Part shown: positions 5,042 to 64,000 of the stretch, one piece after another
Layout of the letters: each line of letters starts with the position of its first letter
Numbering within the stretch: the stretch's first letter is position 1
Assembly: GCA_946699065.1 (NCBI GenBank)
Contig: CAMPDV010000018.1
Coordinates: 1,546,825 to 1,610,824, forward strand
Source of the DNA: Loxodes magnus
Taxonomy: Eukaryota > Ciliophora > Karyorelictea > Loxodida > Loxodidae
Direction: 5' to 3'
DNA: 64,000 nt
The notes under the pieces: model-generated
Told to the model about the DNA's origin: nothing
The model's input: only the letters and a program-made list of their open reading frames with translations
Databases searched by the model: none
Translations under genes and position numbers: made by a program

Positions 5042-5687
<646 letters not shown>

Positions 5688-10416: not shown

Positions 10417-12204
10417 TCAAAGATCTGAATTAAGAAATTTTTATTTGAATTGAAAATTGATTAATAGTTCTAAGATAGTAATATACAAACAAAGAGCTTT
10501 ATTTTAAATAAATTAGATTATAAACTAAAAATTTTAATTTTAAAGGACTATCTTTTCAGCACATTCTTTACTTATTATATTTCCAAACTTCTTAATTAAG
10601 TCAAATTATTCTCTTTCATCATATACTATTTAAAAATCACTTTTTTAAATATAGGAATCTAAGTCTCCTCCATAATTAATTAAATATTCTATCTCTATTA
10701 ACTAAGTTATCAAATTTTCTTGAATAGTTCCTTTAGTATTAAATATCTCCATGCTTAATGAATTAGTTCCTTCTATTAATCATAATTTCAATTTTTTGTC
10801 AATCATTAAACTCATTTCAAATAGTTCAAATACTCCTGGTAGCTTTAATAAATAATTTTTAGCCATTAAAGCTAAATGTAATTATATTTTTCTAACTTGC
10901 TACTATAATTGACTCTAATATCCTTACTTTGATGATATTAATCCAAAGGATTGAAGTTATTAATAGAAGTTTTCAAGAGTTATAAACTGCTAATTAAAAT
11001 CAAGATTATTTTAGTTTTAATTTAGATTACTCACGTTTTCACTACCTTCTAATACTTATTTTTTAAGAAAGCCGTCGAAAGATAATATTAGCATAGGTTC
11101 CATTCTAGCAATAGCAAAATACATTTTCAACTCATATTTTTCATTTAATACTAGTAAAGGATCTTATAGTTACTTTTGAATAAGTATTTCTAATTTTTCA
11201 TCACAAATTTTTTCTCGTTAATATCGTTTTAATAAATAGCTAAGATAATCTAAATTCTAGATTTGACTCTTCTAGAAATTTTGGACTTCCTATTTATTTT
11301 TATAAATTCATTTATCTTAACTATCTTTGCTCGATTTCTCTAAAAAAGTTCTGCATTAATCTTCATTAGACAAATCATATGATTCTAAAAGGAAATCATT
11401 GGCATCTAAACAATTTCCGATTTTGCTATACTTAAGCAGACCTTAATAAGTTCATCTTATATTACTCAATATCTTATTACCTGGTATATGGTTATACATT
11501 TGGCTTTTGCATAAGAAATGCTTATTAATTTGATGATATTTATGTCAGTCTGGAGTAATTGTAAAAAACATCTAAATATCTATTCTCAAATTAGAAAAAG
11601 TTATACTTGAAGAGTCCTTAAACGAAATATTTTTATGGGCATCAACTCCTATCTTCTCTATAATAGATCTCTATTAACTTACTAATTAAAGATCTGTAAA
11701 TATAATTTTCTGATTTTCTTGGGCTTTTTAACTTTCACTATTTCCTTATTATTTTGATTTTTGATATTTTTCAACCTTTTAGCAATAAAAATCTTCATTA
11801 ATTATAGTCTGATGAATTCTAGAAAAATCAAGAGAATTTAGATACTAATCTTGTCTCTATTCGTTGGTTAATAGATTCTATAATTGCCATTCCTTGCTTT
11901 AAGACTTGTTTCTATAAACTAAATCTTTATATTACTGCATGACAACCGAATCTGCATTCTATTATTAAGCTTAGGAAATTTTCCCACTAAAGAAGCCAGA
12001 TCTAAATAAAATTCCTTACTTTTACTAGTCTAACTACTAAACACTATATAAGTCATTATTCAAGATAGTTTTTTAATGGTTCACAGTCTGGAAAGCATAA
12101 ATTATTCATACTAACTAAAGAAGTAGAAGAACAAGTAATCAGACAATAGTTTTGCAAAATAAAGAGACTTGCTTAATTTTATTCATTTTCTATTGTTTAA
12201 TCAT
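10417..12204 (-). CDS. Tubulin-tyrosine-ligase-like (TTLL) family protein, membrane-anchored
   Basis: 595 residues, uninterrupted from ATG 12204 to TGA 10419-10417. TTLL enzymes add Glu, Gly or Tyr to tubulin tails. Family marks in order: TPDWHKYHQINKHFLCKSQ then YNHIPGNKILSNIRWTYQGL (the vNHfPg motif), LESYDLSNEDQCRTFLEKS (like PxxYxLxx), KWIYKNKQE at the WIxKP position, EILIQKQLQDPLLVLNEKYE then LKMYFAIARMEP (like QkYIxxPlLixgrKFDlR), and LMIDKKLKLWLIEGTNSLSM (like DxxlkpWLiEvN). Six Trp are TGA, several of them family-conserved. It is divergent: the WIxKP Pro is lost, and the final Asn box reads EGTN instead of EVN, so activity is uncertain. The first ~40 residues hold a hydrophobic run (KTIVWLLVLLLLQLVWIIYA), a signal anchor unusual for a cytosolic tubulin ligase; some TTLL15-type proteins have one. 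Another ATG lies 12 nt upstream in frame. Confidence 0.75.
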
Positions 12205-18784: not shown

Positions 18785-19456
18785 TCAGACGATCATTGGA
18801 GGAACATAAACCGAACTTGTAGCGATTTCTTACTTTTATTTCTAATTTGGTTTCAGAAAGATTTTCTTGGCTTCCTCTTTTTCTTCGATAGACTCTATGT
18901 TTTCAATCTTCTGAATTTAATTTTCGATGCAGGTAAATTCTAAAATGTTATTTTAATCAACAAATTTGGTTTCCTATTATAAATTATTTTAAACTTGCTA
19001 CTAAATCTGAATACTTGGAATTACTTATATTTAATTAGGGTAAACAATCCCTTGCTACGAACAAACCTGTCCAGGAAAGAAATTTATTACTAAGCCAATA
19101 TTTCCAATTTACTTCCCTCTATAGTAAAGATCATAAAAATCTTGCATCTTTCCAACTATAAAAGCTTCTGAGATGTTGATATCTCCTATTCCTATTAATT
19201 CATTGGCTCTAATCCTATGATGATTGTAAACATGTACAATTATTATGTTACTACATAAATCTTTTATTTCAAAATCGAATACATTGCCTCACTAAGGTGA
19301 AAGACCTCCTTTTTGATGCACGTGAGTTTTTCTAGATTAATTTCCTATTGTGATAGTTGCAAAAGGTGACATGGTTTTTATAAGACTTACATCTCTAATT
19401 AGCATAGCAGAGCGAACTGTGACTGTCAGTTATCCCTAACACTATTGATGTTACAT
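18785..19456 (-). CDS. C2-domain protein
   Basis: 223 residues, start 19456, TGA 18787-18785, no intron. Residues about 8-125 form a single C2 domain: GQLTVTVRSAMLIRD (strand 1), SPFATITIGNQSRKTHV, SPQWGNVFDFEI (the NPxWNExFxF motif, with Trp encoded by TGA), NIIIVHVYNHHRI, ELIGIGDINISEAF and YRGKQIGNIGLVINF. C2 domains bind membranes, often with calcium. I see few of the usual Asp ligands in the loops, so calcium binding is doubtful. The second half is a Gln-rich linker and an acidic helix (IENIESIEEKEEAKK), ending in VYVPPMIV. Proteins of this layout, C2 plus a disordered tail, are common in ciliates and often cortical, but I cannot assign a role. Confidence 0.88.
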
Positions 19457-25463: not shown

Positions 25464-26576
25464 TCAAACTTTAACTCTCTATTAATCAAATTCATTGTTT
25501 TCATTCTACATCATTTTTTAATTGTTTGACGGAGTCTTAATTTTTCTTCCTTCTTACCAAACACCTTCCTTTACTTCTCCTTATGCATTACTATAAATTC
25601 CTTTCCCATGCTGCTTTCCATTATACCACATACCTTTATAACATTTTCCATCAGGCCATCTAAATTCTCCATATCCTTATTTTTTGTCATCTTCATAGTC
25701 ACCAATATAAACTCTACCATCTTGCCATGTAAACTTTCCTTTTCCATGCATTTTATTATTTTTTCAATCTCCTTCATATCTACGGTTATCCGTTCATAAG
25801 TAAGTTCCATATCCATGAATATTATTTTCAAAAAAATCTCCTTAATAAGTACTTCCATCTGACCATTAAAATTTTCCTTTACCTTGCTTCTTTCCTTCGG
25901 AATATTCTCCTTCATATTCAGCACCATCTGGCCATGCTTCTTTCCCTTTACCATGATATTTATCATCTTTCCAATCTCCTACATATTTAGCTCCATTAAC
26001 ATGAATGTAAATTCCATATCCGTTTGCCTTGTCATTTTTCCACTGTCCCTCATAAACATCGCCATCAGCATGTATAAGCCTTCCTAATCCCTCAGCTTTA
26101 TCATTTTATCAATAACCTTCATATTTGCTTCCATCAATTCAGACTTAAGTACCTCTTCCATGTCTTGTACCATTAGCCGCCCAACTTCCAGAATATATTG
26201 CTCCATTATCTAATTCAATTGAGGGTTTTTCTTCAGTTTAGACATTATCCTAAGGAAGTGAATAAGAATCCCAATTAAAACTTCCCATTTTAATTTCAGC
26301 AGCTTTAGTAGCTTCATTTTAATAATTTTAAAGCTTTAAGCTTTAATTTTTTTAGTTGTAGTGATTATTCTTTACATTATTAGATTTTTCAGACTAAAAG
26401 TTCTTCTTAGCTATGAAAGCTCTAACCAGTGATTACACTAATAAATTTTTCTCTTCTTCCTCATTATTATTGGCTTATAGTTTCTTAGTATTATTAATTT
26501 ATTTTTCATTATTAATCTGTTCTATCTTCATCTCTAGTTTTGAGTCTTCTCTCAAGCAACTACAATTAGAACCCAT
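25464..26576 (-). CDS. Lipid-anchored MORN-repeat protein with IQ-like motif
   Basis: 370 residues, single exon, start 26576, TGA 25466-25464 in frame. The N-terminus MGSNCSCL has Gly2 for myristoylation and Cys5/Cys7 for palmitoylation, so membrane anchoring is likely. A charged helical region follows with an IQ-like motif ([14 protein letters not shown]), a possible calmodulin site. The second half is about nine MORN repeats: YSGSW, YEGYW, YEGQW, YVGDW, YEGEY, YQGDF, YEGDW, YIGDY, YKGMW. Four TGA codons fall on strictly MORN-conserved Trp positions, for example YEGDW and YEGYW, among the strongest proof in this window that TGA is Trp. MORN proteins link membranes to the cytoskeleton; ciliates have many at the cortex and basal bodies. 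A TAA 20 codons before the TGA is an alternative stop. Confidence 0.93.
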
Positions 26577-27145
26577 TATTATATAAGAAAAAAGTTAAAT
26601 AATTTAAAGGTAAGTAGTACGAATTTTAAAGAATTTAATTTAAGATTCATTTTATAGCTTCAAGTATTTAAACTGTATAGGCCCTATAATTTGTATCTAT
26701 TGTAAAATATCTATATATATGCTACTAAATAATGTTTTATATTAGTTTTATTGCTACTAATTATACTTATCATGTCCTTATTATTACACTAACTAATTAT
26801 TTACTTAGTTTCTTGCTTTAGAAAATAGATATTTTTATATTTTTTATTAAAGATTCTTGTTTCTTTAAAAAATTAGCTTTATTATGCTCAAAATCTTTTT
26901 ATAATGTATCTCTCAACCTTCTTTCCATTTTTAAAGGGTGCTTATTAATTTAAATTTGATTAGCATTCCTAATCCTGTAAAAAAGGGAAAATATATTGAT
27001 TGGATATTAAAGATAATCCAATTAAATTTTTAGATCCTTAATTTTGTTAAGATTTAAGAGAACTTTTTTACTTGTTCTTGATAATTTTTATATCCAAAAT
27101 AGTTTTTTAATCATTTATTTAATAAAAGTAACTCTTACTAATCTA
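26577..27145. other. Intergenic stretch downstream of the transposase
   Basis: AT-rich. I looked here for a terminal inverted repeat matching the far side of the transposase gene and saw none by eye. Confidence 0.45.
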
Positions 27146-28489
27146 TCAATCAATATCATAGAGTTTCTCTTTTTCCATGTTAATCTCTGGTTCTCTATCT
27201 TCAAGCATTTTATCTTCTGTTTTTAAAGGATCTTAGGCCTCACTCATTATTTTGCACATAGCTTTAAACGTACTAATAAACTCAAAGCTTTTATTATCTT
27301 TTAGTTATCTAAACTATCTTCGTCAGCAAAATTCGTGTAGATAATTTTGCAAATCACTGCAAGTACGATTAACTCTCTTAATATCAAATTTTGCCCAAAG
27401 CCACGAAATTTCAATATTTTGAGTATAAATTTCTCTGTTATTAGGATCAACAAAATGTCGTGAGTGGTCTACAGTGTAATGTGGATATCCTAAATCTTCA
27501 AGTCCATTATAGGCAGCTCACTAATCCGAAATAATGGTAGTTCCAACTTCGCAAGTCTTTTGAATTATAGGAATTAAAGTCTTAGCATTCCTGGTTGCTA
27601 CTACTTCCATATATGTTATTCTTGATTCTCTTTCATAAAGTCCAAATACCCAGGTACATCTTCCAGCTCCAGGCATTACAATTTTTTTCTTTAAGAAATT
27701 GGTTTCATCAATTTCTACTGTTCCTTTAAATTTTTGGAAGCTCCCAGTTCAATGTTTAGAAATTTAGCCTCTCATTCTTGTGGTTAATTTTCTTACTGGT
27801 TCTCTGCTACATCCTAAAATATAAGCGATATCGGTATCTCTTTATCGTATTGTCCACAAAATTAGAAGGAGAAGTAGCTTATCTAACGTAAAATTAGTTC
27901 CATCAAATATAGTAAAATCTCTCAGTCCTTAAATGCATCCGCAAGTCTTGCATCTATATAGAAAACTATCAGGGCCAATTTAGCCAATTTAAAGGCTCAT
28001 CATACTGTATTCATTAGTTTAAGATAGATTATGTATCTCACCTATACTTAATTAAGGCAAATTTGTGTTACATCTATTGCATGGTCTCTTATAAGGAAAA
28101 AGTTTGCATCTTAACAGAAAATTTAGCGATAACATTTCTTCCTTGCATATATCAAAAAGATTATCTGGTAATTAAGTCTTCTAAAGATATTCAGTTAACT
28201 CTTATCCATATAACTAATAGAAATCTTTACTAATACTGGCAATTGAAGCTAACTACATCCCAATAAACTCCCTTCGGTATTTCAAAATCTCCTATTATTG
28301 TTTTTATATTTGAGCTTAAGTTTCTTCCAATATCCTTTAAAGTTCATTATTCTTTTGTTCCTTTTCTTAAGATTCAGCAAGCATTAGCTTGTTTTAATTT
28401 TTTAATATAATGAATTATTCTATCTAGCTTTTGCAAGGCGTGCACTAAAAGGCATGTTGATGCCAATTATGACATTCTTCTTACCACAT
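27146..28489 (-). CDS. IS1595/Merlin-type (ISXO2-like) DDE transposase
   Basis: 447 residues, single uninterrupted frame from 28489 to TGA 27148-27146. N-terminus: a short Cys/His segment (CHNWHQHAFQCTPC) and a Gln-rich coiled coil. Middle: a zinc ribbon (PCNRCN ... YRCKTCGC) followed by a helix-turn-helix region, DTDIAYILGCSREPVRKLTT, as in IS1595/IS1016 and eukaryotic Merlin elements. C-terminus: the ISXO2-like catalytic domain. It has VEIDETNF (first Asp), GRCTWVFGLYER, EVVATRNAKTLIPII, SDQWAAYNGLEDLGYPHYTV (second Asp, with Trp as TGA), DHSRHFVDPNNREIYT and QNIEISWLWAKF (third acidic residue). The frame is intact and all catalytic residues are present. It is therefore either a recent or active element or a domesticated gene; ciliates use domesticated transposases in genome rearrangement. 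No flanking inverted repeats were seen. Confidence 0.9.
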
Positions 28490-29300
28490 TTTTAAAAGTT
28501 AAATGCTCTCTAAACTGTAAAATATAAAATATGCTTAATAAAGAAGTACCCTTATTTATAAATCTAGCATCCTTTAAATAAGCATCTATTTACCTTCACC
28601 ACTTCTTGTTAAGAAATTAAGAATGTATGCTGGTGTATATTTCTTATGCAGAACAAGCATTTTCTATAGAAGGAAAGATATAAATTTATATGAAAACTGC
28701 AATTAAAAGATGAATATAATACTAAAAATAAAACTTAGATTCTATTATTAACAAAATAAACTATCAAGGTATACTATCCCTAAGCTACTAACGGATTGCT
28801 TATGTTCTTAACACTGCTACATCAGTATTTATAGAACATTCTAAAATGCTAAAAGTATTTCTTTAAGTTATCTAGATTAGCTATTATTTATAATCATCTT
28901 TTAAATATTTAAATTTAGATATGCTTTAGATATTTAACTAATTAGAAATATAGAATTTTCAAAAGCATTCAACTTAACTTATTCTAAAGGAAGTTAGGCT
29001 ATCTAGCAAAAATAGAATAATCTAAAGAGCTATATTAAGGTATTATTTAAAAATCATTCTTAATCAACAGTAAGCATTATATTAAGCTAGCTTATCTAAA
29101 TATCATATTTTATGCAAAAGCTAAAATCTCATAATTAAAGTTAATAAGTTTAAGACTAATAAGTACAAATTATAGTAGACAGATGTTTTACCTAAATGAA
29201 GGTAAAAACATTGCCTCAAGCATAGAGGAATTAGACTTAAGAAGCAATATTGCAAACTTATTTAGATTTTCCATTTAAAGATAATTAATTACAGAGACAC
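28490..29300. other. AT-rich intergenic stretch
   Basis: Lies between the transposase start and the 3' end of the next gene. The upstream frame can be read through TAA codons to a TGA at 29105-29103, but the product is not protein-like. No transposon end recognised. Confidence 0.45.
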
Positions 29301-49107: not shown

Positions 49108-51949
49108 TTAAAACTCAAGTCTGTTTCAATCATATTCTTCACTGCATAAATAGGTAAAGTGACTTTTAAGCAATTCTAAAGTATCCTTTAATTTAAAAAA
49201 TTTACCGGATAAATTTCTTCTGAGTAATCTCTTATAAAATTAGAAGTTAAAGTCATCGTAGGGATATTAGTTTTGGTTCTTTGTTGAAGAAGTTTCTTCA
49301 AATCTAGTATAATATAAAATATAATTACCTGTATAATTTTGCAAAATTTGTTTAGTTTATTCTTGAAGAGAAGATAATTAAGTCTCTTTATAAATTTCAG
49401 GAATATTATAAACTGATTATTTAAATAAACTTACGTCCAAATTCATCTGGAGGTTCTTATTGCATTTGAAGAAGTTGCTATTTTTTTTCTTAAAATAGTT
49501 TTTATTGCTCTTGTTAAGTTTATTAATCATTCTCGGTTTTCGTGTTCTACTCACTATTTTCTATCTATAATTCCTTTTTTTGATCTTTTTCTTCTGTTTT
49601 ATTCTGTTCTGGCTTCTTCTTTTTTATTATTTTTGATTTAGACAAAGATTTTTTTTTCTATCCTGAACTTTGAATTGCTTCTTATATATTATCTAGTGAA
49701 GTTTGGAGGTCTTTGCCTGTTTTTTCGTGTTATTGCTGTTCTTCTGGTAAAATTTTGCCTACACTAGCATTCAATTATACTTTTGATTTTCTTATGCTCG
49801 TCAATCTTTTTCCCTTTTACTTTTCAATTTATTTTTCTTTTTCTTTTTCATCAACAATTTTATTTTGATCAACAGGATCGCTATTTTAATTAGTTGGTGA
49901 TAAATCTTACCCTTCTTCTTTTTTTCCCCAACAATTAGTTTTACCTTTAACATTTTTAAAATCAAGTTTTAGAGGCTAAACCGCTTGAGATTTTCTTCTT
50001 AAAAATGGTTTTATTGTTAATTATTTTTCAGGCTACTAATTTCCATCTTTTTATTCCTCCTCTATTGGCTCAGGTAAATTTGACTGATTGGTGTCATTTC
50101 TTTCAGGACTTAAAGAAGTGTTTATTTTAGCTGAAAAGCCAATTTCTGCTTTTTCATCTGAATTTATTAATTTTGAGTTACTAATCCCTTCTTTAGCAAC
50201 TCACTTTTTATTTGTTGCTGGTTTTGGTGGATTGTATTTATTTTTCCTTTTCAGAAACTCAAACTTATGTTGAGGCTTTGTGCTCTCCTACATTGATTAA
50301 TCTAATTCTGGATTATTAGTCTCTTCTGCTAAAGTTCCTTATTCCTATAGAGTTTGCTCCAACTTCTACTCAAATTCTTTTGTTGATTCATGCACAACTT
50401 CTTCCTCTTTTTCTTTTTCCTTTTTTTTTGCTTTGTTATTTTATTTAAGTTCAAGAACCCATTACCCAGTTTGAAAAAGTGTTTGAAATAGATTGATAAA
50501 CTTCTATCTGGTTTGTTATAATTAATCCTACAACTTATTAAAAAGCTGCTTGGCCGCTTCAGTTTATTCTCCTTTTAGTTCTTCATGTAAAATTAGCATA
50601 TCTTTTATTTATATTTTTTTGTTTTAAATTTACTTTGTCTTTAAAACCTTTCTAACCTTTCATCCTTTTAACAAAGCCTATCTTAAATCTCTATGTCTTT
50701 TCTTTTGTTTCATTTCTGGTAAGTAAATTTTTTGAACATTTCATCTCCTTCAGTTTCTTTATATCATTATTACACAATGATTTATAAACTAGTTTAAGAG
50801 CTTAGCATTCTCTTTATTTCTTCTCTTAATAAAGCACCTAAAAGCTGCTTGTATTCGATTAACTGCAAAGGAATCTTTTATTTTTTTGGCTATATGTTCA
50901 AGTTACTCTTTAATTTAAATTTCTTTCTCATATTAAATAAAATTTCTCATCATGTTTCGCTGAGCAACTCCTCTTCATATCTTTTGAATATAAATAGCAG
51001 CTTCTTGCTTTTTTTATCTTAATATCTCTCTCTCTTTTGCTACTTACTTGATTTATTCAATTTCCTATTTTTTCTTTTCATCTTTCATCTTTTGCAATTC
51101 TTATCTCTTTTGCTCTGCTTTTTGTTTTAGTTCTTAAAGATTTTATACGTCCATAATCTTTCTACTACCTATTTGTAAGTTTTGGCTTTTACTTACAGAT
51201 GTAGTTTCTGTCTTTGCTAAAAAATCTTCATAAGAATAATAAATACTTATACTTTAGTTTAACGGATTTTTATGAACATTAGTCTTACTTGTGAGTTCAG
51301 GACTTTACTGTATTTATATCTATTAGGCTTGTTTCTGGATTTTAACCTATTAAACAGTGTTTATTTATTTTTTTGTTTCTTACTATTCTATAACTGTTTA
51401 AGGTAATTATTACTTCTACATTTCGCTTTCAGTTTGCTTTTAAATTGATTCTTGGCTTTCCTAAACTTATTTATCTTCAATGGAAACTTATTTTTCTTCT
51501 TTTTTTTCCTCTATTTGACTTTGGTCCTATTAATTTATTTCTTTAATTTCTTATACTTCTGAAACATTTTGCAATTAATCTTAACTTGGAACTTTTTACA
51601 TATAGGAGCTTGTCTCTTCAATAGAAAGTTCCGTAATTCTGTCGTTAAAAGTTTCATTTGGTTATTCTACTTCTTGACTTTCCTCAATTTTCTGATTTTA
51701 TTCCTAGTCGATAACTGTAATAGGATCTTAAAAAGTGCTTTCATTGTGCATATTTTCCTCCTAAGACTATTATAAGAGGTTTGATCCATCTAATACTGAA
51801 TCTGCTTCAAACTGATCTTATTTTACAGTCTCATTTTAATCAATAGCTGAAATATCAATACTTGTTTCGAAAAATCTCTTTGCTTCTTTTCTTTCCTCAT
51901 ATTCAGGAGATTGTAATTGAGAGTTCTTTTCTTAATTTTTCTTTTCCAT
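49108..51949 (-). CDS. Large IQ-motif protein, Glu/Gln/Lys-rich
   Basis: 924 residues after removing introns of 22 nt (49413-49434), 25 nt (49304-49328) and 20 nt (49186-49205), all near the 3' end. The first ~300 residues are acidic and Gln-rich, then a Lys/Glu coiled coil. Three IQ calmodulin-binding motifs follow: AIYIQKIWRGVAQRNMMRNF (about 320-338), VNRIQAAFRCFIKRRNK (about 360-378) and VIMIQRNWRRWNVQK (about 395-410). The Trp residues in the first and third are TGA. A basic region and a charged, Pro-poor tail with RKNKYNPPKPATNKKWVAKE follow. The last exons give EFGLYNIPEIYKETQLSSLQ, TNIPTMTLTSNFIRDYSEEI and LELLKSHFTYLCSEEYDWNR. I place the end at TAA 49110-49108; the next in-frame TGA is 34 codons further. 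Likely a cytoskeletal calmodulin-binding protein; no family named. Confidence 0.85.
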
Positions 51950-54900: not shown

Positions 54901-55640
54901 AAAACTTATTAAGATAAAGACTTTTGAGAATTTAAATTTTTTTTAATTTTCGTTGTTATAGAAATAACTAAGTATGTTGTTTTATGTATTTATTATTAAT
55001 AAAATAATTATAAATTTTAATCTTAAATAGCTTCAATAGATTCATATTAAGGTTTTTGTATTTTTTTAGTTAAATTCTTATATATTTTTGCATTAATAGA
55101 ATAAAATTATTAATACTTTCATAAATTTAGTATTAAGAGTTCATCTATTTACTTGTACTGCTTGAAAAATAAAAAAATAATTAATAATCTTGTTCTAAAA
55201 TTATTTAATTTTAGGTATTTGCTTAGAAATTTTATAGCAATTATTAATAAATTTAGTTTTTAATTTAGTTCTATTTAAAAAAAAGATCGATTTAATAAAT
55301 TATTTGATTAAATGACTAAATAAACGTAGATTGTAAAATTCTTTTTAAATATTTATTTTCATTTATTTATAAATTTAAGTAATTAAGCATTTAAAATGTT
55401 CTACAATTTATTTAAGTTTTATTATTTTAAAGGTATTCAAACAACTGTAAATAATTTTATTGTATATTAATTAAGGTCTAGAATGGACTAGCTTCCATTG
55501 TTCGAAAAAGGATAATAAAGTCTAATTATTAATTTAAATAATGAATCTATTTCGTTTATTTTCATTTTCTTTAATATCCGTTTTTTAAGTGTTTAAGTTA
55601 TTCATAGTATATATAGCTAAGTTTTATTTTATTTTTATAA
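51950..55640. other. Very AT-rich gene desert
   Basis: About 3.7 kb with long A/T runs. No protein or RNA gene recognised. It forms the upstream region of the kinase-WD40 gene on its right and of the IQ gene on its left, so promoters must lie within it, but no motif stands out. Confidence 0.55.
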
Positions 55641-58107
55641 ATGGAATCAGGCTTCGATTAAGATTTCATAATTTAGCGAGAGTATTTAGAAAAAGGAGAA
55701 CCAATTGCTAGTGGAGGTTTTGGGACTGTGTATAAAGGAAAATGGTTAGAGACCATTGATGTTGCGATTAAATAGTTATTTATATAGAATCCAACCATAG
55801 ATATCAATTAAGATTTCTAAAAAGAATTAGCAGTTTTGAAGAAATTACGTAATCCTAATGTTATAATGTTGTATGGTTATTGTAATTAACCTCTTAGTTT
55901 AGTGATGGAATTGATGGTTCAATCTTTATTTTAGTTCCTGCACAATAATAATGAGATACCATGGTTACTAAGATATTAGATCAGTTTAAACATAGTAACT
56001 GGCTTATAGTACATACACATGTAGGAAATAATTCACCGTGATTTAAAAAGCAACAACATTTTATTGGATAACAAAAATATGGCTAAGATATCTGATTTGG
56101 GATTGGCCAAAATTAAGAATAAGTCAAAGTAATTTAATACAAATACGAAAGTAGGCACGATATGTTGGATGGCGCCTGAGTTGTTGTAGATATAGCCTCA
56201 ATATAGTAAAAAATCTGACATTTATGCGTTGGGAATGGTTTTTTGAGAGATAGCTTCGTAGAAGATTCCTTTTGAGGAAACTTTAGAGCTAGTCATCATG
56301 TCATTGGTAACGAGTGGAAAGAGAGAGAAAATGCCAGTTGACTGTCCCTAGTAATATACTTAGATAATAAATGGATGCTGGGCTTAGGAGGTTTAGAATA
56401 GGCTTGAAATCGACTAGATCAAGAAGATGATGTTGGAGTGTATCAAGAGCTAGAAGTAGAGTTATTAATAAAATTAGCCTAGCCCCCAGCAACCTTAAAA
56501 ATCGTTATAAAATACACTACAGTAGTAGTAAATCAGGTAATAAGTTCCGATGGTTGTGTCTTAATAATAGATCGAAAAAATTCAAACTTAAAATTTAACA
56601 AATCTCTCGATTTTAACCTTTGACAATTTGCTATAGTTCTTAAATCAGATAAAAGGAGAGAATGTTAATTTATTAACGATAAAGCAAGGTCCTTTAAATC
56701 AAACTAGATTAACTGATTAGGTTTAAATTCTGTTACAATTATCATAAGTGGCAGATTAATAAATACATTAAAAGCTGAGTTAGATAACATAGTTATGTAA
56801 ATCTCAATAAGGAGTTACATAAGTTGCTTCCAATGTCTTAACAATGCTTAATTTTATGAACTTCGCGTTCAACAATCAAAACCTCTAAAATCTTGACTTA
56901 TCTAACTCTGATTTATCGGACACCACTTTCACCAACTGTAACTTCTCCAACTCAAATCTAACATCAACCAACCTAAGAAACTCCAAATTCATCAACTGTG
57001 ATATCTCCAACACCAATCTAACCTCAATCATTACGGAACACCCAAACATGTTCACTGGACACTCTGATCGTGTCACTTCAGTTGCCATCTCACCTAACTC
57101 TAACCTAATAGTCTCTGGATCACGTGACAACACTCTTAGACTCTACAACATAGCTGAAGGTACCTGTAAGACCATGAGTGGTCACACTTATTATGTATCA
57201 TCAGTGGCTATATCCAGTGATGCCAACTTAATCCTTTCTGGCTCTTATGACAAAACTTTAAGACTCTACAACATAGCTGAAGGTACCTGTAAGACCATGA
57301 GTGGTCACACACATTATGTATGATCTGTGGCTATATCCAGTGATTCAGAGTTTATCGTATCGGGAAGTCATGATACTACTCTTAGACTTTACAATATCAA
57401 GACAGGTACCTGTAAGACCATGAGTGGTCACAAAGATTCTGTATATGCTGTGGCTATATCCAGTGATTCAGAGTTCATCGTATCGGGAAGTTATGATAAG
57501 ACGGTGAGACTATGGGACGTCAAGACAGGTACCTGTAAGACCATGAGTGGTCACACTAATTCTGTATTATCTGTGGCTATATCAAGTGATTCCACTTAAA
57601 TCATATCTGGATCTTATGACAAAACTATTCGTTTATGGAACTCTCGAACTCTGTCTTGTACAAGGGTCTTATCGGGACACACCTCTGAAGTCTATTCGGT
57701 AATATTCTCAAACAACAACAAGTATATCTTATCTGGATCTTCTGACAAGACAATAAGAATATGAAATATCTTTAATGGATAGTGTGAATGTGTACTTATG
57801 GGTCATACAGACACTGTGGGTAGTTTATCATTATCAAGGGACAACAATTGGTTAGTATCAAGTAATGGAAGTTTCTGATATAATCCAAATAAATCGGAAG
57901 ACTACAACATTCGAAGATGGAACATAGGAAGGTTATTGAATGGAGAATAAACAACTAACTAATAATAGGTAAGTTCAAATTTATCACACCACATTTATAT
58001 AGACTGACTGGAATAAAGTATATGATGACTATGGATTGCGATTTTAGAATTGCGTAATGACTAATACTATAATGAGTGCCGAGGACAAGTAGAGATACAT
58101 CAAGTGA
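55641..58107 (+). CDS. Protein kinase with pentapeptide repeats and WD40 repeats
   Basis: 810 residues after removing one 34-nt intron (57969-58002); stop TGA 58105-58107. Residues about 15-265 are a TKL-type kinase. It has ASGGFGTVYKG (Gly loop), VAIKQL (Lys44), HRDLKSNNILL (about 132), SDLGLAKI (DLG in place of DFG), VGTICWMAPELL and SDIYALGMVFWEIAS, with Trp202 as TGA. All catalytic residues are present, so activity is likely. A Gln-rich linker follows. Then comes a run of pentapeptide repeats (about 417-465): LDLSNSDLSDTTFTNCNFSN, SNLTSTNLRNSKFINCDISN and TNLTS. About seven WD40 repeats (469-763) follow, for example GSYDKTVRLWDVKTGTCKTM. Four WD repeats are nearly identical at the DNA level. 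Codons in the pentapeptide/WD part end in C more often than in the kinase part. Internal TGA codons fall on WD-conserved Trp (HTHYVWSVA, TIRIWNIFNG). The tail TDWNKVYDDYGLRFQNCVMT follows the intron. Confidence 0.93.
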
Positions 58108-58309
58108 TCTATTTGATTTTAAACTATTTAAACTATTTAATTTTACATTTAAGAATATTAAAATTGTTAAGTCTTTATTATTATTGCTTAAGTTCTTCTC
58201 TTTATTATTATTATAAGTAAAGTTAAAAAAGTGTTAAAGTTCTTAATTTTTCCTAAGTCTTTTTTGAACTTAGTTATTTTTATTATTATTTGTTTAATTA
58301 AATTTTAAA

Positions 58310-60085: not shown

Positions 60086-60299
60086 AAATACATAGAGCTT
60101 AAAAATAGATTAAAAGAAAAGTAAAAATAAAGTTTTTTGGAAAATGAAGAATAGCAAAACAAGAAGTAAAAGAAACGTTATTATTAAAAATACATAAGAT
60201 AATAAAAAAAACAAGTAAAAAAATTAGAACGATCTCATAGTGAAATAAAGAAAAAAAAATGAAGTGTTGCAAAAATAAGATGATCTGAGATATTACATA

Positions 60300-63200
60300 A
60301 GTAAAGAAGTAAAGCAAAAAAGAATATAGAATTTAAGTTTTAGGAAGTAAGCTTTGAGATAAAAGATAAGTAAGTATTTTGAAAAGTGAAGAAGTAAATT
60401 AAGAAAAAAAGATAGAATTTCAGTTTTAAGGAGTATGCTTTGAGAAGTAATAAGAACTTTTGAAGTGAAGAAGTAAAGTAAGAAAAGAAGATAGAATTTA
60501 AGTTTTAAGGAATATGTTTTTAAATATAAAGAAGTTATAAATATCTAAAAAAGTGCTGAAGTAAAGTAGAAAAGAAAATAGAACTTAAGTTTTAAGGAAT
60601 ATGTTTTTAAATATAAAGAAGTTATAAATATCTAAAAAAGTGAAGAAGTAAAGTAGAAAAGAAGATAGAAATTCAGTTTTAAAGAATAAGCTTTGAGATA
60701 AAAGAGAAGTAAGTATATTGAAAAGTGAAGAAGTAAAGTAAGAAAAGAAGATAGAATTTCAGTTTTAAAGAGTATGCTTTGAGAAGTAATAAGTATTTAG
60801 AAAAGTGAAGAAGTAAAGTAAGAAAAGAAGATAGTTTTCAGTTTTAAGGAGTATGCTTTGAGAAGTAATAAGTATTTAGAAAAGTGAAGAAGTAAAGTAA
60901 GAAAAGAAGATAGAGTTTCAGTTTTAAGTAGTATGCTTTGAGAAGTAAAAAGTATTTAGAAAAGTGAAGAAGAAAAGTAAGAAAAGAAGATAGAGTTTCA
61001 GTTTTAAGGAGTATGCTTTGAGAAGTAATAAGTATTTAGAAAAGTGAAGAAGTAAAGTAAGAAAAGAAGATAGTTTTCAGTTTTAAGGAGTATGCTTTGA
61101 GAAGTAATAAGTATTTAGAAAAGTGAAGAAGTAAAGTAAGAAAAGAAGATAGAGTTTCAGTTTTATTGAGTATTTTAGATAAAAGAAGATGTAAGAATTA
61201 GAAAAGTGAAGAAGTAAAGTAAGAAAAGAAGATAGAGTTTCAGTTTTAAGGAGTATCCTTCGAGAAGTAATAAGTATTTAGGAAAGTGAAGAAGTAAAGT
61301 AAGAAAAGAAGATAGTTTTCAGTTTTAAGGAGTATGCTTTGAGATAAAAGAAGTATTTTGAAAAGTGAGGAAATAAAGCAAGAAAAGAAGAAAGAGTTTC
61401 AGTTTAAAGGAGTATGCTTTGAGAAGTAATAAGTATTTAGAAAAGTGAAGAAGTAAAGTAAGAAAAGAAGATAGATTTTCAGTTTAAAGAAGTATGCTTT
61501 GAGAAGTAAAAAGTATTTAGAAAAGTGAAGAAGTAAAGTAAGAAAAGAAGATAGTTTTCAGTTTTAAGGAGTATGCTTTGAGAAGTAATAAGTATTTAGA
61601 AAAGTGAAGAAGTAAAGTAAGAAAAGAAGAAAGAGTTTCAGTTTTAAGGAGTATGCTTTGAGAAGTAATAAGTATTTAGAAAAGTGAAGAAGTAAAGTAA
61701 GAAAAGAAGATAGTTTTCAGTTTTAAGGAGTATGCTTAGAGAAGTAATAAGTATTTAGAAAAGTGAAGAAGTAAAGTAAGAAAAGAAGATAGAATTTCAG
61801 TTTTAAGGAGTATCCTTCGAGAAGTAATAAGTATTTAGGAAAGTGAAGAAGTAAAGTAAGAAAAGAAGATAGTTTTCAGTTTTAAGGAGTATGCTTTGAG
61901 AAGTAATAAGTATTTAGAAAAGTGAAGAAGTAAAGTAAGAAAAGAAGATAGAGTTTCAGTTTTATTGAGTATTTTAGATAAAAGAAGATGTAAGAATTAT
62001 AAAAGTGAAGAAGTAAAGTAAGAAAAGAAGATAGTTTTCAGTTTTAAGGAGTATGCTTTGAGATGCAATAAGTATTTTAAAAAGTGAAGAAGTAAAGTAA
62101 GAAAAGAAGATAGAGTTTCAGTTTTAAGGAGTATTCTTTAAGAAGTAATAAGTATTTAGAAAAGTGAAGAAGTAAAGTAAGAAAAGAAGATAGTTTTCAG
62201 TTTAAAGGAATATGCTTAGAGAAGTAATAAGTATTCAGAAAAGTGAAGAAGTAAAGCAAGAAAAGAAGATAGTTTTCAGTTTTAAGTAGTATGCTTTGAG
62301 AAGTAATAAGTATTTTGAAAAGTGAAGAAGTAAAGTAAGAAAAGAAGATAGAATTTCAGTTTTAAGGAGTATGCTTTGAGAAGTAATAAGTATTTAAAAA
62401 AGTGAAGAAGTAAAGTAAGAAAAGAAGATAGTTTTCAGTTTTAAGGAGTATGCTTAGAGAAGTAATAAGTATTTAGGAAAGTGAAGAAGTAAAGTAAGAA
62501 AAGAATATAGAGTTTCAGTTTTAAGGAGTATCCTTCGAGAAGTAATAAGTATTTAGAAAAGTGAAGAAGTAAAGTAAGAAAAGAAGATAGAGTTTCAGTT
62601 TTAAGTAGTATGCTTTGAGAAGTAAAAAGTATTTAGAAAAGTGAAGAAGAAAAGTAAGAAAAGAAGATGGAATTTCAGTTTTAAGTAGTAAGCTTTGAGA
62701 AGTAAAAAGTATTTAGAAAAGTGAAGAAGTAAAGTAAGAAAAGAAGATAGTTTTCAGTTTTAAGGAGTATGCTTTGAGAAGTAAAAAGTATTTAGAAAAG
62801 TGAAGAAGAAAAGTAAGAAAAGAAGATAGTTTTCAGTTTTAAGGAGTATGCTTTGAGAAGTAATAAGTATTTAGGAAAGTGAAGAAGTAAAGTAAGAAAA
62901 GAAGATAGTTTTCAGTTTTAAGGAGTATGCTTTGAGAAGTAAAAAGTATTTAGAAAAGTGAAGAAGAAAAGTAAGAAAAGAAGATAGAGTTTCAGTTTTA
63001 AGTAGTATGCTTTGAGAAGTAAAAAGTATTTAGAAAAGTGAAGAAGAAAAGTAAGAAAAGAAGATAGAGTTTCAGTTTTAAGTAGTATGCTTTGAGAAGT
63101 AATAAGTATTTAGGAAAGTGAAGAAGTAAAGTAAGAAAAGAAGATAGTTTTCAGTTTTAAGGAGTATGCTTTGAGAAGTAAAAAGTATTTAGAAAAGTGA

Positions 63201-64000
63201 AGAAGAAAAGTAAGAAAAGAAGATAGTTTTCAGTTTTAAGGAGTATGCTTTGAGAAGTAATAAGTATTTAGGAAAGTGAAGAAGTAAAGTAAGAAAAGAA
63301 GATAGTTTTTTCAGTTTTAAGTTTTAAGGAGTATGCTTTGAGAAGTAAAGAAGTATTTAGAAAAGTGAAGAAGAAAAGTAAGAAAAGAAGATAGAGTTTC
63401 AGTTTTAAGGAGTATGCTTTGAGAAGTAATAAGTATTTAGAAAAGTGAAGAAGTAAAGTAAGAAAAGAAGATAGTTTTCAGTTTTAAGGAGTATGCTTTG
63501 AGAAGTAAAAAGTATTTAGAAAAGTGAAGAAGAAAAGTAAGAAAAGAAGATAGAGTTTCAGTTTTAAGGAGTATGCTTTGAGAAGTAAAAAGTATTTAGA
63601 AAAGTGAAGAAGAAAAGTAAGAAAAGAAGATAGAGTTTCAGTTTTAAGTAGTATGCTTTGAGAAGTAATAAGTATTTAGAAAAGTGAAGAAGTAAAGTAA
63701 GAAAAGAAGATAGTTTTCAGTTTTAAGGAGTATGCTTTGAGAAGTAAAAAGTATTTAGAAAAGTGAAGAAGTAAAGTAAGAAAAGAAGATAGTTTTCAGT
63801 TTTAAGGAGTATGCTTTGAGAAGTAATAAGTATTTAGAAAAGTGAAGAAGTAAAGTAAGAAAAGAAGATAGTTTTCAGTTTTAAGGAGTATGCTTAGAGA
63901 AGTAATAAGTATTTAGAAAAGTGAAGAAGTAAAGTAAGAAAAGAAGATAGAATTTCAGTTTTAAGGAGTATGCTTCGAGAAGTAATAAGTATTTAGGAAA
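60300..64000. repeat. 79/80-bp satellite array running off the window
   Basis: About 45 tandem copies of a purine-rich unit: CAGTTTTAAGGAGTATGCTT then TGAGAAGTAATAAGTATTTA, GAAAAGTGAAGAAGTAAAGT and AAGAAAAGAAGATAGTTTT. Units alternate between GATAGTTTTCAG (79 bp) and GATAGAGTTTCAG (80 bp) forms. Divergence is low inside the array and higher at its left edge (60300-60560). Variants such as AGTAATAAG/AGTAAAAAG recur in several non-adjacent units, pointing to higher-order duplication (for example the TTTTATTGAGTATTTTAGATAAAAG variant at 61162 and 61960). Because 79 is not a multiple of three, no repeat protein is encoded. The array continues past base 64000. Confidence 0.95.

Follow-up and report, generated by a model that had tools for sequence, protein, structure and literature searches.

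The 64,000-nucleotide stretch of contig CAMPDV010000018.1 analyzed here (the window) almost certainly comes from the somatic genome of Loxodes magnus, a karyorelict ciliate, and is translated with the ambiguous code of this group. Judged from sequence, all three standard stop codons are sense codons here, with UGA read as Trp and both UAA and UAG as Gln. UGA also terminates, and UAA appears to do so: we think it likely that L. magnus has two ambiguous stops, UGA (Trp or stop) and UAA (Gln or stop, the latter use in about one in eight of the sampled genes), with UAG as Gln only, a code that lies between NCBI tables 27 and 28. The code of this genome has already been described, as table 27, and the finding is to this extent a known one. 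Because the 2022 abstract of Seah and colleagues reportedly states that UAA may serve as the stop in a small minority of karyorelict transcripts, we regard our result on UAA as a confirmation with numbers and not as a discovery. What is added here is that the stop set was checked by protein anchors, for which no transcripts are needed.

An earlier note on this DNA had proposed that TGA encodes Trp in many unrelated genes, and a six-frame search of the window, with TGA marked apart from TGG, bears this out: all ten of the motifs that it quoted are present, each with TGA at the Trp. Domains were checked with Pfam after all three stops had been written as X, so that no codon meaning was assumed, and MORN, kinase, WD40, C2, TTL, IS1595-type transposase and Ras domains were recovered in the claimed frames. 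On the minus strand, the C2 domain (Pfam E 2e-8) has TGA at SPQWGNVF (19289..19291), and a TTL-like protein has it at LWLIEG (10780..10782), with a Pfam TTL match in the same frame (E 2e-6) that stops short of the motif. On the same strand, TGA occurs at IQKIWRG (50975..50977) and twice, by motif search, in IQRNWRRW (50741..50752); "IQ motif" is the name given by the earlier note, and no Pfam match was found in the IQKIWRG stretch at E 0.01. The transposase, also on the minus strand (window 27000-28600), is IS1595/ISXO2-like (DDE_Tnp_IS1595, PF12762, E 5e-15); TGA stands at its SDQWAAY (27518..27520), and a second one at HEFCWRR. On the plus strand (window ~55500-58200), a WD40 propeller lies in the same long frame as a protein kinase domain, and the WD40 part contains a 123-base tandem repeat. 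Within the kinase domain as delimited by Pfam, TGA is found at GMVFWEIAS (56244..56246), and within the WD40 repeats at HYVWSVA (57321..57323), where the column is mixed, and at RIWNIFNG (57762..57764, by motif search and Pfam). The window ends in a tandem array (60299-64000) with strong strand asymmetry, whose unit is either 79 bases, in ~42 copies from 60617, or alternatively 159 bases, from 60299.

The MORN-repeat gene (25464..26531, minus strand; Pfam MORN E 5e-41 with all stops as X) spans 355 codons under the all-sense reading, from an M at 26531 to an end TGA at 25466-25464, and holds 17 TAA, 4 TAG and 4 internal TGA codons in frame. Two of these TGAs, at YEGYW (26109..26111, starting from 26111 on this strand) and at YEGDW (25764..25766, from 25766), lie opposite W in alignments to solved MORN proteins, again with stops as X. 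The other two, at 26139..26141 (from 26141) and 25794..25796 (from 25796), fall in a mixed Trp/aromatic column of the repeat and lie opposite Y, F or L. Among the protein's own repeats, the YxGxW column has TGA in two, TGG in five and Y or F in three, and the second TGA-bearing column has TGA in two, TGG in four, H in two and N in one; both are TGG-rich and neither is pure. The earlier placing of TGA in Trp-rich MORN columns stands, but to call these positions invariant overstated the case for MORN and WD40, where columns are mixed. Statistical support for TGA as Trp comes from Ras genes.

The window's Rab6 gene (minus strand; Ras by Pfam E 4e-54, stops as X) does write the Gln of WDTAGQE with a stop-type codon (5472..5474), as had been claimed; its C-terminus, GCCK and then a stop TGA (5042..5056, same strand), is in a frame different from that of the domain, which points to an intron between them. 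We aligned this gene with 68 loci from the same genome, found by searching the L. magnus assembly of 705,730,643 bases, with stops as X throughout (n = 69); the 136 kinase matches in the genome were left out of the codon counts. The Trp of WDTAGQE is written TGG in 38 of the 69 genes and TGA in 25 (other codons, 6), and the second Trp column holds 33 TGG, 29 TGA and 7 others. The Gln of DTAGQE is TAA in 43 genes, TAG in 17, CAA in 5, CAG in 3 and ATG in 1. When TGA codons are classified by the majority residue of their Ras column, 54 fall on W, 9 on F, 2 on K and 1 on L, and TGA is absent from the 27 columns conserved at 85% or more for other residues (1838 sense cells). The same 27 columns hold 7 TAA and 4 TAG codons, nine of these 11 in a single column where Arg predominates and the remaining two in a Glu column. 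The earlier note had named TGA codons at random family columns as evidence that would speak against its reading; in the Ras alignment their placement is not random.

The pattern extends to the gene that we take, from its motifs, to be that of the release factor eRF1. It is present as two closely similar genes about 35 kb apart on one contig (L040 and L041 on C196), which contain in-frame TAA and TAG; the Gln of GGQ is TAA, and NIKS and C-x3-F are kept. The positions written TAA or TAG here are Gln columns in other eukaryotes. With the Ras columns, the ten motifs and eRF1 taken together, the proposal that all three stops serve as sense codons is well supported. One could still regard frames with internal stops as pseudogenes or assembly errors: the genome is repeat-rich according to the L. 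magnus paper, and some copies in large families may be dead. But across the 69 Ras-family genes TGA clusters in columns where Trp predominates, and the conserved Gln is in most cases spelled TAA or TAG; the eRF1-like gene itself carries in-frame TAA and TAG, so we give this explanation practically no credence.

Which codons terminate was addressed at gene ends whose position is fixed by the protein. Rab-type proteins end at, or a few residues past, their prenylated cysteines. We used these cysteines as anchors in the Ras family, and the conserved last residues of histones and of LC8-type dynein light chains; if the protein end is fixed in this way, the next stop-type codon should be the real stop. 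For the Ras family, 60 + 60 loci fetched among the 150 matches listed, together with 8 earlier loci and the window's gene, gave 129 genes, of which 58 had an in-frame CC or CxC motif and 71 did not. Ten ends, three of them TAA, were settled by eye (L056, L158, L136, L152, L118, L119, L125, L133, L005 and L102), the motif of L133 being false (internal), and ten CCK-TGA ends lying in a different frame were added, so that 77 were used in total and 52 were not. We used 20 of the 31 histone matches. Of 21 dynein light chain loci 20 were fetched; one was left out as unanchored (L212), and two of those kept look like one gene copied (L209 and L210).

The first stop-type codon at the resulting 116 anchored ends is TGA in 96, TAA in 17 and TAG in 3. 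The share of TAA differs by family: 14 of 77 in Ras (60 TGA, 3 TAG with TGA close behind), 2 of 20 in histones (18 TGA) and 1 of 19 in dynein light chains (18 TGA). In no case is TAG alone at an anchored end (0/116), since the three TAG-first ends (L001, L002 and L055) have TGA at the next codon or two codons later; L001 and L002 end CCK-TAG-TGA, and many of their relatives end CCK-TGA. Among the 17 TAA ends, three (L111, L167 and L202) have a backup TGA no more than five codons further on and 14 do not; past these 14 there are at least 15 codons before a TGA, or none in the fetched stretch. UAA thus appears to act as a stop in a minority of genes, and the stop set would consist mainly of UGA, probably with UAA in a minority, and without UAG on its own.

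The L. magnus paper has karyorelicts using table 27, with UGA as the sole stop and also Trp, and UAA and UAG as Gln. Taken exactly, this would make each terminal TAA a Gln codon followed by a C-terminal extension to the next TGA. Part of our own data would suit such a reading: the only TAA among dynein light chains (L202) is followed two codons later by TGA, all 18 others end in TGA and none of the 19 has a TAA end without TGA close behind, and where a stop-type codon directly follows CCK it is TAA in only 1 of 31 cases. We nevertheless hold it to be unlikely, because 14 of the 17 TAA ends have no such TGA to run into and because extensions past TAA would bury the prenylation cysteines. Close relatives, moreover, have TGA at the same place where TAA is found: L158 (CNVL-TAA) next to L136 (CNVL-TGA) and L152 (CNLL-TGA), L118 (CCK-TAA) next to L119 and L125 (both CCK-TGA), and the histones L167 and L170 (HLTDM-TAA) next to L168 (QLTDV-TGA). 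Mean G+C drops from 0.31 to 0.18 across TAA (16 ends), much as it does across TGA (0.32 to 0.20, 68 ends). Amino-acid identity among Ras relatives falls across TAA from 0.47 to 0.24 (8 TAA-TAA pairs, which are non-independent), across the stops of mixed TAA/TGA pairs from 0.43 to 0.22 (n = 27, with shared genes) and across those of TGA-TGA pairs from 0.47 to 0.23 (n = 55, with shared genes), that is, to the level of random downstream pairs (0.23, SD 0.06). In the predicted proteins, conservation ends at terminal TAAs as it does at TGA. Amino acids were compared in place of nucleotides since random AT-rich flanks align at 0.66 nucleotide identity, which makes a nucleotide-level comparison of paralogues across the stop uninformative. 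We also considered a short intron (GT..AG, 16-25 nt) spanning the terminal TAA; it is possible at 4 of 16 TAA ends versus 19 of 48 TGA ends, without enrichment.

The presence of both TAA and TGA at anchored ends, together with TAG coming first at three of them, could instead suggest the Condylostoma code, in which all three codons are stops. The earlier note had offered both codes: the sense meanings that we find fit the karyorelict table 27, but table 28 fares poorly against 116 ends without one in UAG alone. The TGA found at once or two codons after TAG in all three TAG-first ends also speaks against UAG as a stop, as does the L. magnus paper, which reports depletion ahead of stops for UGA and UAA but not for UAG. 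We consider table 28 very improbable for this genome. The reading that we prefer, UGA as main stop and UAA as a minority one, bears on that published depletion. The Cell 2016 paper argues that a codon still able to terminate grows rare right before stops. The depletion of in-frame UAA reported for L. magnus agrees with this rule, and so do our TAA ends; if UAA stops a minority of genes, the depletion would follow from the rule proposed for Condylostoma. In genes ending in TGA we counted 4 TAA, 11 TAG, 9 CAA and 3 CAG among the last ten codons (710 in all), 25, 25, 30 and 5 among the ten codons before them (710), and 43, 32, 34 and 10 further upstream (1378). The TAA share of Gln codons thereby goes from 43/119 to 25/85 to 4/27 toward the end. 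A depletion specific to TAA is weak in these counts, since Gln codons of every spelling thin out near gene ends; the absence of upstream TGA in the Ras set is partly built in, because motifs after TGA were rejected.

As for the tRNAs that could read these codons, ARAGORN found none in the window, and Rfam gave no match there above its gathering score. In the genome, tRNA-Trp(CCA) genes occur in tandem arrays, with at least 48 copies on contig C67 (among the matches listed) and more on C148; the array units measure ~188 and ~241 bases (C67, C148; L182-L184). All five copies taken from these two contigs have four of the five anticodon-stem pairs, the outermost pair, 27-43, being broken (A.C or T.C). 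Three of three copies on contig C110 (L185-L187) keep all five anticodon-stem pairs; their T arms are imperfect, and they are perhaps decayed copies. One pattern for a tRNA-Trp with UCA anticodon had no match at 0 mismatches, and the best 100 of its 126 near matches were all CCA. A 2026 paper states that UGA readthrough in Blastocrithidia and Condylostoma is increased by a tRNA-Trp with a 4-bp anticodon stem; it adds that such a tRNA was identified in Loxodes, for which it credits an eLife critique. A 2025 paper has it in Loxodes as well, and it is also reported for Blepharisma. The 4-bp-stem tRNA-Trp(CCA) of L. magnus is likely the reader of UGA, and would be charged and decode accordingly.

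A pattern for tRNAs with UUA or CUA anticodon had 359 matches at up to 2 mismatches, all of them UUA among the matches listed. Seven fetched copies fold as tRNAs, and in five of these every arm position is paired; in one array (C214, L191) the unit is ~275 bases. One pattern for a Gln tRNA with CUA anticodon had no match at 0 mismatches; its 352 near matches were UUA among the matches listed. A search with the whole tRNA family was uninformative, as all 30 loci cut from its 63 matches have tRNA-Lys at the match. The earlier note had suggested looking for a tRNA-Trp able to read UGA and for two Gln tRNAs, with UUA and CUA anticodons. UUA-anticodon tRNAs are indeed present, and so is the 4-bp-stem tRNA-Trp(CCA), but the single patterns for UCA-Trp and CUA-Gln gave no match at 0 mismatches.

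We suggest the following scheme. Within genes, UGA would be translated as Trp and UAA and UAG as Gln, as the conserved columns indicate. The 4-bp-stem tRNA-Trp(CCA) may decode internal UGA, and the UUA-anticodon tRNAs are candidate readers of the Gln codons, provided that they are charged with Gln. UGA would be the main stop, UAA would end a minority of genes by the same route, and no end in UAG alone was seen among the anchored genes. The switch between sense and stop may lie in the context of the mRNA 3' end, by analogy with what has been published for Condylostoma. If this is true, gene models built with UGA as the only stop overrun the real ends of UAA-ended genes, and need to be shortened there.

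Compared with the 4-bp-stem tRNA-Trp(CCA) mechanism of Blastocrithidia and Condylostoma, L. magnus has the same broken 27-43 pair, in 5/5 copies of C67 and C148; it differs in that the position is occupied by A.C or T.C and in the three C110 copies with five pairs. A UCA version gave no exact match to the single pattern used. According to the Cell 2016 paper, Condylostoma and the karyorelict Parduczia use all 64 codons as sense, with stops read by context. With the table 28 code of Condylostoma magnum, our genome shares the use of all three stops as sense codons and, apparently, of both UGA and UAA at the ends of genes, and it departs from that code at UAG, which ends none of the 116 anchored genes alone. 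With table 27, the code of L. magnus itself and of Parduczia, it shares UAA and UAG as Gln and UGA as Trp or stop. The exclusive use of UGA as stop that defines this table is, on sequence evidence, where the anchored ends diverge from it: UAA comes first at 17 of 116, and 14 of these are without a TGA within five codons.
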